NCBI GenBank assembly: GCA_003331605.1
Contig: QOPD01000009.1
Coordinates: 1-36,275, forward strand
From: SAR86 cluster bacterium
GTDB lineage: Bacteria > Pseudomonadota > Gammaproteobacteria > Magnimaribacterales > TMED112
Length of the DNA: 36,275 nt
Direction: 5' to 3'
The notes under the pieces were generated by a model. It was not told the DNA's origin, did no database searches, and was given only the letters and a program-made list of their open reading frames with translations. Below, one piece after another: positions 13,348-17,669 of this stretch. Position 1 is the first letter of the stretch, and each line of letters opens with the position of its first letter. The position numbers and the translations under genes were made by a program.

Positions 13348-14217
13348 ATGAACATCAAGAAAGCAGTATTTCCTGTAGCTGGTTTTGGAACGAGGTTTCT
13401 TCCAGCAACTAAAGCTACACCAAAAGAAATGTTGCCAATTATTGATAAGCCTATAATCCAATATGCTGTCGAAGAGGCTTTAGAAGCAGGAATAAATGAA
13501 TTTATTTTTGTTACTCATCACGCAAAAAGGGCAATAGAAGATCACTTTGACGAAAACTTAGACTTAAAACAAAGACTCAAGAATGATGGAAAAGATGATT
13601 TATTGAAATTGATATCAAAAGTAGGCGGGAAAGATTCTAAATTTACATTTGTTAGGCAAGATGAGCCTAAAGGGTTGGGACATGCAATTAGCTGCGCTCA
13701 ACACCTAATGGAAAAGAATGAATATTTTGCAGTGATACTGGCAGATGATTTAATAATTAGTGAAGGCAAAAATGTTACCTCTCAGCTTATCGATCGAGTG
13801 CAACAAGAAGATAGGCAAGCATTAGCATTGGAAACAGTGCCCACACATGATATTTCAAAATTTGGGGTTATTTCATTCAGTGAGCAGCAGGAGGATGTGT
13901 TTCAGCTAAGTGGTATCGTTGAAAAACCCGACCCCTCTGAGGCTCCATCTGATTTAGCTGTTGTAGGAAGATACATTTTTAATCAATCTATATTCAATTC
14001 AATTGATGAAAAAACCCCAGGGAAAAATGGTGAAATTCAAATCACAGACGCTATCGAAAAACAGATATCTGATTTTGTTGGCATAAAGTTTCAAGGGCAG
14101 CGCTACGATTGTGGAAGCAAAATAGGCTATTTGAAAGCAAATATTGAATTAGGTCTTAAGCACCCCGAAATTTCTGAAGATTTAAAGAATTTATTAAAGG
14201 AATATTGCAATTTATAG
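13348..14217 (+). CDS. galU: UTP-glucose-1-phosphate uridylyltransferase GalU
   Basis: Makes UDP-glucose from UTP and glucose-1-phosphate for envelope polysaccharides and sugar interconversion. From the ATG at 13348 it has 289 aa (typical 290-300), starting MNIKKAVFPVAGFGTRFLPA. The nucleotide-binding GFGTRFLPATKATPKEMLP is at 12-30, followed by the Gal/Glc-1-P uridylyltransferase blocks VRQDEPKGLGHAI, ILADDLI and IVEKPDPSEAPSDLAVVGRYIF. A TTG at 13330 in the same frame overlaps the promoter -10 and is not a credible start. The 3' end overlaps the inferred pyrD start by eight bases. Confidence 0.94.
   Translation: MNIKKAVFPVAGFGTRFLPATKATPKEMLPIIDKPIIQYAVEEALEAGINEFIFVTHHAKRAIEDHFDENLDLKQRLKNDGKDDLLKLISKVGGKDSKFTFVRQDEPKGLGHAISCAQHLMEKNEYFAVILADDLIISEGKNVTSQLIDRVQQEDRQALALETVPTHDISKFGVISFSEQQEDVFQLSGIVEKPDPSEAPSDLAVVGRYIFNQSIFNSIDEKTPGKNGEIQITDAIEKQISDFVGIKFQGQRYDCGSKIGYLKANIELGLKHPEISEDLKNLLKEYCNL
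14196..14201 (+). promoter_or_regulatory. Ribosome binding site that decides the pyrD start
   Basis: AAAGGA at 14196-14201, inside the end of galU, lies eight bases upstream of the ATT at 14210. This is an ideal Shine-Dalgarno spacing and supports initiation at a non-standard AUU codon. For the other upstream ATT (14204) the spacing would be only two bases. Confidence 0.5.
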
Positions 14218-15190
14218 ACTACTAAGAACATTTCTATTTCTTCTGCCACCAGAATTTGTACACAGCCTTTCACATTTATATTTAAAATTATTTTCTAGAG
14301 CTTACAGATTTAATTCTCATACAAATCAAGTTATTAAAGGGCTTAGAGTGGGCAATAAAATAGGTTTGGCAGCTGGATTTGATAAAAATGGCCAGCTGAT
14401 TCCAGAGCTTGAGGATATAGGCTTTGGTTTAATTGAGATTGGTACCGTTACACCAAAAGCACAACCTGGTAATCCTAAACCAAGATTACACCGTTTAGAA
14501 AAACATGAATCTCTAATTAATAGTTTAGGTTTCAACAACCATGGTATGGAAGCTATGTTGTCAAATCTAAAAAGCTTGAGGAGAAGAGGGGCCTTAGGCA
14601 TAAATATAGGGCCAAACAAAAATACAAAATTTGAAAATATTCTTGAAGAATATTTAATTTTATATAGGGCATTTAGCAGTCATGCAGACTACATCACAAT
14701 TAATATTTCTTCTCCAAATACTCCTGGTTTAAGAAATATGCATGATCCTCACTGCTTTAAAGATTTAATACGCCAAATTTCAGCAGAAAGATCCACAAGC
14801 AATGATAAGCCAAAAATCTTGATTAAATTTTCTCCTGATGAGAATCATGACACATATATTAAGTTGATTGAGATACTTAATAATTCTGATCTCGATGGAG
14901 TTATAATTTCCAACACTACAGTTGATAATGATCTTAAAATTAAATCTGGAGCAACAAGTATTAATGGTGGCATCTCAGGAAAATTGCTCCAAGATAAATC
15001 AAACGAACTTCTTGCTTTTTTTAAAAAAAATCTAAATCCTAAAAAAATTATTGTTGCAGTTGGTGGTGTTTTTGATGTAGATTCTTATAACAAAAAGTTA
15101 GACCTTGGCGCTGATTTAGTTCAAATCTATACAGGTTTTGTTTACGAAGGCCCAAGCTTAGTTAAGAGAATCGTACAGAATGGCAAGTAA
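14210..15190 (+). CDS. pyrD: Dihydroorotate dehydrogenase (quinone), class 2
   Basis: Oxidises dihydroorotate to orotate, passing electrons to the membrane quinone pool (pyrimidine synthesis). The FMN barrel begins at GLAAGFDKNG and includes EIGTVTPKAQPGNPKPR, INSLGFNNHG, INISSPNTPG with the catalytic Ser region of class 2, and VGGVFD near the end. The first ATG/GTG/TTG in frame is GTG at 14348, which would remove the membrane-binding helices. The frame is open upstream to a TAA at 14195, and from ATT at 14210 it reads MYRLLRTFLFLLPPEFVHSL, which closely resembles the normal N-terminus of gammaproteobacterial PyrD (MY...R...F.L.PE..H). Start at AUU gives 326 aa (E. coli 336). A CTG at 14243 is a poorer alternative. 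Confidence 0.85.
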   Translation: MYRLLRTFLFLLPPEFVHSLSHLYLKLFSRAYRFNSHTNQVIKGLRVGNKIGLAAGFDKNGQLIPELEDIGFGLIEIGTVTPKAQPGNPKPRLHRLEKHESLINSLGFNNHGMEAMLSNLKSLRRRGALGINIGPNKNTKFENILEEYLILYRAFSSHADYITINISSPNTPGLRNMHDPHCFKDLIRQISAERSTSNDKPKILIKFSPDENHDTYIKLIEILNNSDLDGVIISNTTVDNDLKIKSGATSINGGISGKLLQDKSNELLAFFKKNLNPKKIIVAVGGVFDVDSYNKKLDLGADLVQIYTGFVYEGPSLVKRIVQNGK

Positions 15191-17669
15191 AACACTAGTA
15201 ATTGTTGAGTCACCTTCAAAAGCCAAAACAATCAATAAATATCTTGGTTCCGAGTATGTTGTTAAATCTAGTGTTGGCCATGTAAGACGTCTTCCTAAAG
15301 GAGCTAAAGCCATTGATCTAAATAATTGGGACGTTAGTTATGAAATAGATCCCAAGAAAGAAAAAGTTGTTAAAGATTTAAAAACATCTGCTAAAAAAGT
15401 CGAAAATATTTTTCTGGCAACTGACTTAGACAGAGAAGGAGAAGCCATTGCTTGGCACTTAAAAGAAATACTTGGCAAAAAATTTAATTATAAAAGAGTT
15501 AGATTCAATGAAATCACAAAACCTGCTATTGAAAGAGCATTCGAAAACCCAAGTGAACTAGATGATGGTTTAATTAATGCACAAAAAACCCGAAGAATTT
15601 TAGATAGAATAGTCGGCTACGATCTGTCAGCAATCCTTTGGCAAAAAATTGGCAGTTATGGGAAATTATCTGCTGGTAGAGTTCAATCTGTAGCTGTGAA
15701 GTTAGTAGTTGAGCGAGAAAAAGAGATTAAATCCTTTGATCCTAAAGAATATTGGGAAATTGAAATAACCATCAAACATAAAGATAGGAATATTGTTTTT
15801 AAATTAAATGCAAAAAAATCTGAATTGAATTTAAGCAATGAACAGCAAGCAAATGAGCTGATAGAGAAACTGCTTAAAGCAGAGCTTTTAATACTCAAGA
15901 ATGAAACAACAAAACGAAAAATCCCTGTTAAGCCACCTTTTATTACCTCAACTCTCCAACAAACATCAAGTTCATTTCTAGGGTTTAGTCTTTCCAAAAC
16001 CATGAAATTAGCTCAAGATCTTTATACAGGTGGATACATCTCATATATGAGAACCGATTCCCCAAATTTAAGTGCTCTATCTCAGAGTAATTGCAAACAA
16101 TTTTTATTGGATGAATATGGTGAGAAGTACAGCACGCCTCGTAACTTTTCTTCGAAAGCAAGCAATTCACAAGAAGCCCATGAGGCTATTAGGCCTACAG
16201 ATGTAAACTTAAAATTTAATGATATTGCTCTTAGTGAAGATCATAAAAAACTCTATAAGCTAATATGGGATAGGTTTGTTGCATCACAAATGCCACAACC
16301 AGAGATAGTTGTTAATAGCATTAAAGCATCAGCAGAAAATTGTTTTTTTGATACTTCAGTAAGCTCTATAAGTTTTGATGGTTTTTATAAAGTTATGCCT
16401 CCTGGGAAGAATTCTGGCTATGTTGAATACAATTTAGCAGAACTTTCTGAGGGCACATCTTTAGGTATACCAAAAGCTGATAAATATCAGCATTTTACCA
16501 AACCCCCTTCAAGATATTCAGAGGCAAGCCTTGTAAAGGAATTAGAAAAGAGAGGAATTGGACGACCATCCACTTATCAAGAGATTATTACCAATATTCA
16601 AGAAAGAGGGTATGTAAAGAGCGAATCAAAAAGATTATATGCAACAAAAATTGCAAATCTGGTCTCAAATAGGCTCGAGCAATCCTTTGAAAAAATAATG
16701 GACTATGGTTTTACAGCAGGGATGGAGCAAAACCTGGACGAAATAGCTGAAGGAACAAAGGAATGGCAGGTTATTTTATCTGAATTTTATCAAGAATTTC
16801 AGAACGCAAAGTCAGATGCAGATCAAAAAATGGAAAGAAACCCTCCTATTGATACGGAATTAAGTTGTGATTTATGTGATAAGAATAGGAAAATGCAATT
16901 AAGGACAAATCAATCAGGCCAGTTCTTGGGTTGCGAAGGGTACACAGATGAAGATGACCAATGCAAAAATACCAAATCATTATTATCTGTAGATTTATTT
17001 TCGGAAAACGATGATAAGGAAGCTGAAAGTATATTTAATAAAGAGAAATGCAGTTTGTGTGGATCATCTATGGACGGATTTATCATTGATGAGAAAACTA
17101 AGCTTGATATTTGTTCTAATTCTCCTATTTGTCCTGGTACGAAATTAAAGCATGGAGAATTCATTAAGCCAAAAAATGAAGACGAGGAATTAATTGATTG
17201 CCATAAGTGCGACTCACAAATGGAGCTTAAACTTGGCAGGTTTGGTAAGTACTTTGCTTGCCGAAATGAATCTTGTCCTGCGACTAGGCAGTTATTAAAA
17301 AACGGCGATCTAAAGCCAGTTTTTATGGACCCAATAAAATTAGAAAATATTCGATGTCAGAAGTGTGATGATTTCTATTTGTTGAGAGACAGTATGAAAG
17401 GGCTTTTTTTAGCAGCATCACAATTTCCAAAAAATAGGGAAACTAGGGCACCTTTGTTATCTGAAATCAAGGATGTTGTAAATGAATTGCCAAAGAAGTA
17501 TGAGCATTTTGCCGATGCACCAACTGAGGATTTAGAGGGCGATAGCTTAGTTATTAGATTTAACAGAAAAGGAGGCACTCATTATCTATCAGCGGAAAAA
17601 GATAATAAGAAAAAGAAATACTTTTTTGTCTATGAGAAAGGTTCTTGGAAAGAAAAGAAAAGAGATTAA
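15180..17669 (+). CDS. topA: DNA topoisomerase I
   Basis: Type IA topoisomerase relaxing negative supercoils. The 829-aa protein (E. coli 865) has the TOPRIM domain with E10 and the D82-x-D84-x-E87 metal triad (TDLDREGEA), GYDLSAILWQKI, GKLSAGRVQSVA, the active-site Tyr Y289 in YISYMRTDS, and RGIGRPSTYQ. The C-terminus keeps three tetra-Cys zinc ribbons (starting at CDLCDKN, CSLCGSS and CHKCDSQ) and a final TopA-specific segment with CQKCDD that has lost the second Cys pair. The ATG overlaps the pyrD end by 11 bp. Confidence 0.96.
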   Translation: MASKTLVIVESPSKAKTINKYLGSEYVVKSSVGHVRRLPKGAKAIDLNNWDVSYEIDPKKEKVVKDLKTSAKKVENIFLATDLDREGEAIAWHLKEILGKKFNYKRVRFNEITKPAIERAFENPSELDDGLINAQKTRRILDRIVGYDLSAILWQKIGSYGKLSAGRVQSVAVKLVVEREKEIKSFDPKEYWEIEITIKHKDRNIVFKLNAKKSELNLSNEQQANELIEKLLKAELLILKNETTKRKIPVKPPFITSTLQQTSSSFLGFSLSKTMKLAQDLYTGGYISYMRTDSPNLSALSQSNCKQFLLDEYGEKYSTPRNFSSKASNSQEAHEAIRPTDVNLKFNDIALSEDHKKLYKLIWDRFVASQMPQPEIVVNSIKASAENCFFDTSVSSISFDGFYKVMPPGKNSGYVEYNLAELSEGTSLGIPKADKYQHFTKPPSRYSEASLVKELEKRGIGRPSTYQEIITNIQERGYVKSESKRLYATKIANLVSNRLEQSFEKIMDYGFTAGMEQNLDEIAEGTKEWQVILSEFYQEFQNAKSDADQKMERNPPIDTELSCDLCDKNRKMQLRTNQSGQFLGCEGYTDEDDQCKNTKSLLSVDLFSENDDKEAESIFNKEKCSLCGSSMDGFIIDEKTKLDICSNSPICPGTKLKHGEFIKPKNEDEELIDCHKCDSQMELKLGRFGKYFACRNESCPATRQLLKNGDLKPVFMDPIKLENIRCQKCDDFYLLRDSMKGLFLAASQFPKNRETRAPLLSEIKDVVNELPKKYEHFADAPTEDLEGDSLVIRFNRKGGTHYLSAEKDNKKKKYFFVYEKGSWKEKKRD

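Follow-up and report, generated by a model that had tools for sequence, protein, structure and literature searches.

Where does translation begin when the first standard start codon of a reading frame lies well inside the protein that it encodes? This question is raised by the pyrD gene of a SAR86 cluster bacterium, found in a stretch of 36,275 nucleotides (hereafter the window) on a contig whose host genome is 0.94 Mb in size, and a preliminary description of this DNA had answered it with the codon AUU. The infC gene (IF3) starts at AUU in Escherichia coli, at AUC in Streptomyces and at AUA in Staphylococcus aureus, and to our knowledge very few chromosomal AUU starts have been established. 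In a literature search that covered subscription journals thinly, neither AUU starts in pyrD or rsmH nor the start codons of SAR86 were found to be reported.

The pyrD locus in the window

The gene order in the window is galU-pyrD-topA, with all features on the plus strand. galU, encoding UTP-glucose-1-phosphate uridylyltransferase, occupies positions 13348 to 14217 (NCBIfam TIGR01099, 332 bits against a cut-off of 326.8); pyrD, encoding a class 2 quinone-dependent dihydroorotate dehydrogenase of 326 amino acids, occupies positions 14210 to 15190 including its stop (TIGR01036, 308.6 bits, cut-off 200); and topA, which starts with ATG and shares its first 11 nt with pyrD, occupies positions 15180 to 17669 (TIGR01051, 687 bits). 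The pyrD frame is open from 14198, just past a TAA at 14195-14197, and contains no ATG, GTG or TTG until GTG 14348, which is codon 47 when counted from the ATT at 14210-14212; here both coordinates and sequence agree with the preliminary description. The same holds for the Shine-Dalgarno (SD) sequence AAAGGA at 14196-14201, whose end lies 8 nt ahead of the ATT. The galU stop codon, TAG at 14215-14217, falls within codons 2-3 of pyrD (ATT TAT AGA), forming a termination/re-initiation overlap.

Class 2 PyrD enzymes carry an N-terminal helical extension that is used at the membrane. The window protein is assigned to this class by its profile score above the cut-off together with the presence of the extension, which could be aligned with that of E. 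coli PyrD (1f76): residue 2 of the window protein aligns to chain residue 3, and the near-cognate codon lies no more than one residue from E. coli Met1. On this alignment, the codons ahead of GTG 14348 encode the helical extension, bearing out the earlier reading of this N-terminus as a class 2 membrane anchor. Codons 2 to about 45 show low pN/pS values in six pairs (0.34, 0.10, 0.00, 0.07, 0.23 and 0.27), and this purifying selection argues that they are translated. The SD duplex energy at ATT 14210 is -5.6 kcal/mol, compared with a background median of -0.9, and 17% of genes have an equally strong signal.

The same frame offers other candidates, namely an in-frame CTG at 14243, GTG 14348 as the first canonical codon, and a second in-frame ATT at 14204. 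Initiation at any of them is very unlikely. Neither CTG 14243 nor GTG 14348 is conserved, and a start at either would cut off the membrane-binding N-terminal helices; no SD serves CTG 14243, where the duplex energy is +0.2, and the codons ahead of GTG 14348 are the ones under purifying selection. ATT 14204 lies only 2 nt past the SD and is found in just two genomes, the host genome (G000) and the 89%-identical G008. On sequence grounds, ATT 14210 is the only plausible pyrD start in the window.

Signals of other kinds were also sought around this codon. A regulatory RNA or structure was rejected as an explanation, since the Rfam search at the pyrD start gave no match for a structured or regulatory RNA and the RNA fold there was no more stable than that of shuffled sequences (z = 0.55). 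A separate internal promoter ahead of pyrD was likewise rejected, the single weak match being below the shuffle mean.

Conservation of the start codon in family f1

The SAR86 family to which this locus belongs (f1) is represented in our sample by one genus with 21 genomes, in which 15 pyrD genes were found, and all loci were oriented before comparison. These genes are 53-89% identical and come from single-cell genomes and metagenome-assembled genomes. The start column reads ATT in 14 and ATC in one (G014), counts that are not phylogenetically independent, and TAT follows in every one. Most of the genes have no canonical start in the first 40 or more codons, and many have none in the first 65. 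In three of them (G011, G002 and G019) a TTG occurs five codons before this column, but there it falls on the 5' edge of the SD (TTGAGGAAATTAAAGATT). SD energies range from -4.0 to -7.3 across all 15 genes. Among the isoleucine codons inside f1 pyrD genes, ATT accounts for 53%, ATA for 32% and ATC for 15%; if the column were an ordinary isoleucine codon, ATT in 14 of 15 would have p = 0.001, a value that ignores shared ancestry and the galU overlap.

The same codon is present in nine named public records, including the single-cell genomes AG-898-K03, AG-892-M20, AG-349-I13 and AG-422-P06. An ATG masked by a sequencing or assembly error is therefore practically out of the question, given that the start column is ATT or ATC in 14 other assemblies of both single-cell and metagenomic origin. 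The preliminary description had proposed comparing this codon in related genomes, and the comparison upholds its AUU start, with ATT or ATC in 15/15 f1 genes and ATG at the aligned position in 71/71 pyrD genes of Pelagibacteraceae. As judged from these alignments, AUU (window position 14210) is almost certainly the pyrD start of SAR86 family f1.

Overlap with the galU stop codon

In 14 of the 15 f1 genomes, the galU stop (TAA or TAG) ends 8 nt into pyrD (ATT TAT AAR), which favours termination-re-initiation for pyrD. The bases of the ATT are partly common to the galU frame (TTA TAA/TAG), so that its conservation is not wholly independent evidence of start function. G008 is the exception: its galU stop ends one nucleotide ahead of pyrD, and the ATT is still kept.

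The fixed frame offset and the overlap (UUA UAA/UAG) in 14/15 genomes could also be read as the mark of a GalU-PyrD fusion, produced by a +1 frameshift where galU ends. This reading is highly improbable. The Leu-tRNA bound at UUA would need to re-pair with UAU; stops in the pyrD frame lie directly upstream and leave a slip window of a few nucleotides; the galU stop of G008 sits upstream of pyrD; and the SD ahead of the ATT would be left unexplained. Further, ATT-started pyrD genes in family f2 have no upstream open reading frame with which to fuse.

A second occurrence in family f2

Outside f1, all 20 sampled pyrD genes of f3 and all 20 of f4 start canonically, often with TTG or GTG, and at a single conserved position. 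Set against the start-codon background of the host genome (ATG 387, TTG 45, GTG 31), this frequency of TTG and GTG marks pyrD as a weak-start gene throughout the order. In f2, the start is canonical in 13 of 18 genes, whereas the other five (G054, G036, G185, G042 and G191), which belong to three genera, carry an ATT preceded by an SD and lack a usable canonical start. The sister species G188 and G189 of f2 have pyrD with ATG.

In the PyrD tree the f1 clade has a support of 100/100, and lineages with canonical starts separate it from the f2 ATT genes; the ATT start of pyrD thus arose at least twice. The upstream gene does not overlap in any of the five f2 cases, and these sequences indicate that galU-pyrD coupling is not general.

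Near-cognate starts elsewhere in the genome

Start codons were surveyed in 608 non-shadow orthologous frames from 712 kb of G000 (76%) and 1.06 Mb of G013 (99%), a design that is blind to genes with a chance in-frame ATG, GTG or TTG upstream. Most first-pass flags proved to be shadow ORFs, or genes that overlap a neighbour and start normally, and were rejected. In both genomes, the conserved protein begins far ahead of the first canonical start only in pyrD, rsmH and, more weakly, rimM. Together with the recurrence in 15/15 f1 pyrD genes, this near-uniqueness among 608 frames indicates that the pyrD pattern is not due to chance.

The rsmH (mraW) gene (G000:C4:72061-72951, L299, P0001; L300-L314) begins with ATT-AAR-CAY in 16/16 f1 genes. 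Outside f1, its start is ATG in 14 f3 loci and ATG or TTG in 20 f2/f4 loci, with ATT in 0/34. The SD energies of f1 rsmH lie between -5.8 and -13.3 (15 measured), and purifying selection is seen from codon 2 to about codon 35 (pN/pS 0.08-0.27). The upstream gene is ftsZ, and in 16/16 its TAA stop and the ATT start share a T (ATTAA). The gene of the partner methylase, rsmI, has an ATG immediately ahead of the conserved core in f1.

Behind rpsP, f1 rimM (G000:C4:160526-161153, L393; L376-L394) lacks a canonical start in most genomes; its starts are ATC or ATA, with CTG in two (G013 and G004) and TTG in one or two, and overlap the rpsP stop. The evidence from rimM is weaker, as the S16 reading frame limits its position. 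The S16 gene has a repetitive, variable C-terminal tail, and its DNA extends into rimM.

Several candidates appear in one of the two genomes. At G000:C1:211853 (loci L211-L272) there is an ATC start candidate where G013 has ATG, and in G013 an MFS transporter has an ATC candidate where G000 has ATG, and birA has ATT behind GGAG; the latter two correspond to stretches matching G000:C5:397-1660 and C5:10583-11279. In pheS (G000:C6:985-1732) of both G000 and G013, the apparent start lies near the catalytic core (MTAPKDIFLPPLNREIGSRHPINQ), and the usual N-terminal coiled coil is seemingly missing or short.

Since ATG/GTG/TTG-only gene callers cannot place these fixed AUU starts, they will truncate or miss pyrD and rsmH in f1 genomes.

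The initiation machinery of f1

In f1 (L195-L208), infC starts invariably at TTG. Outside f1 (L329-L354), it starts at ATA in f2, in genus g8 of f4 and in part of f3, and at ATG or TTG in some groups. By these codons, f1 has lost the usual near-cognate infC start while carrying AUU at rsmH and pyrD. Like the galU overlap and the ATT of rsmH, the TTG of infC was missing from the preliminary description. Both infC and rplT were not found in G007 (a single contig), G004, G014 and G019; loss of IF3 in G007 and G004 was rejected as an explanation, because rplT is missing as well and a gap in this neighbourhood (missing or misassembled) is likelier.

RsmH methylates a ribosomal P-site base, C1402 of 16S rRNA (m4C1402). 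In E. coli, loss of MraW (RsmH) or RsmI affects start-codon selection (PMC5053481), and cells without either enzyme initiate more at AUU (PMC13317604). Non-canonical starts are repressed by IF3 (PMC5472188), and excess IF3 leads to less re-initiation (PMC2268962).

Start-codon fidelity might be relaxed across f1, by a divergent IF3 or an altered P-site modification, with AUU, AUC and CUG merely tolerated. The scores of f1 IF3 are in keeping with this, being the lowest in the order, mostly 149-182 bits where other groups have 193-236, as are the shift of infC from AUA to TTG and the want of canonical starts in rimM and a few single-genome genes. Even so, we consider relaxed fidelity rather improbable: just 2-3 of the 608 orthologous frames are affected in both genomes, most f1 genomes have both rsmH and rsmI, and f2, whose infC starts at AUA, also has ATT pyrD genes. 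The probable initiator tRNA retains its GGG/CCC stem pairs, which speaks against relaxed fidelity and led to the rejection of an altered initiator tRNA.

A weak start as a probable translational step-down

What would an AUU start be for? In our judgement, AUU 14210 is very probably the start of pyrD and most likely a deliberately weak one, which would set a low, galU-coupled synthesis of PyrD. The initiator fMet-tRNA would pair with the AUU despite the mismatch at the third position, aided by the SD and, in f1, by ribosomes finishing translation of galU at the overlapping stop. A mismatched start implies inefficient initiation, so that each galU-pyrD transcript would yield PyrD at a low rate. 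Where the gene in front overlaps and is probably translated better, a weak start would act as a translational step-down, placing pyrD one step under galU; low expression of pyrD and stronger translation of galU than of pyrD are assumed here. The ftsZ-rsmH pair shows the same device, with AUU, and the rpsP-rimM pair may do so with AUC, AUA or CUG.

Such a step-down is the most likely function of the pyrD AUU, and its main rival is neutral drift under the constraint of the overlap. The AUU would then be a start without a regulatory role, reached by drift because the galU overlap fixes its bases and because a modest loss of PyrD is tolerated in a small AT-rich genome. That the galU stop overlaps in 14/15 genomes fits such drift, as does the rsmH ATT, which likewise shares a T with the ftsZ stop TAA, and so do the one-sided near-cognate candidates of single genomes. 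Drift accounts less easily for the ATT kept in G008 although the galU stop moved upstream, for the f2 ATT genes without any overlapping gene, for SD sequences above background strength, and for ATT or ATC in 15/15 genes when canonical codons are easy to reach. On balance, drift is a real but less probable explanation than the translational step-down.

In E. coli, both IF3 and the C1402 methylation by RsmH/RsmI select against AUU. The starts of pyrD and rsmH are therefore expected to respond to both, and by this analogy, already hinted at for IF3 in the preliminary description, we infer that IF3 or RsmH may control the pyrD start. A more speculative and rather unlikely extension is that the AUU feedback moved from infC to rsmH, with pyrD as the second gene of an AUU regulon in f1. 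Methylation of C1402 by RsmH would suppress initiation at AUU and hence at the start of rsmH itself, an infC-like loop in which pyrD would be a passenger. If such a regulon exists, pyrimidine synthesis would be tied to rRNA methylation or to the state of IF3; should the AUU of rsmH serve to control rsmH itself, start-codon fidelity would be under a feedback that does not depend on IF3.

Comparison with known near-cognate starts

The pyrD AUU start is ordinary in kind, with precedents in infC, pcnB and cvfC1. Like infC, SAR86 pyrD has a near-cognate AUN start that is conserved and preceded by an SD, and that would lower initiation. IF3 autoregulates its own infC AUU start, according to work cited in PMC5472188. 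This kind of autoregulation depends on a product that acts in start-codon selection; PyrD is a dihydroorotate dehydrogenase without a role in initiation, which rules out such a loop for pyrD. By its known activity, rsmH could form one.

The closest functional parallel for pyrD is pcnB, the second chromosomal AUU gene of E. coli (Binns and Masters 2002, cited in PMC13009471), a non-regulator gene whose expression, in that account, is limited by its AUU. Unlike pcnB, SAR86 pyrD has a start that overlaps the stop of the preceding gene and is fixed family-wide. The staphylococcal genes cvfC1 (AUU) and ccpN (AUA) resemble pyrD in having clade-conserved near-cognate starts with a strong SD (PMC13009471). 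Near-cognate starts in S. aureus give about 10% of the AUG yield and have extended SD motifs; those of cvfC1 and ccpN, which also give about 10% of AUG, were mapped experimentally by Ribo-Ret, belong to different genes and have a stronger, extended SD (PMC13009471). In sigR of Streptomyces, a GTC start repressed by IF3 sets a protein ratio and makes the gene IF3-sensitive; it differs from pyrD in the codon, in encoding a sigma factor and in having had its phenotype tested (PMC5472188).

What is new in SAR86 is that such a start is fixed family-wide in a metabolic gene, recurs in f2, overlaps a stop codon and is shared by rsmH. Two essential-pathway genes, pyrD and rsmH, carry a start at AUU that is fixed throughout a clade. 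The comparison suggests a general design for compact genomes, in which a weak start placed over the stop of the preceding gene provides a step down in protein output.
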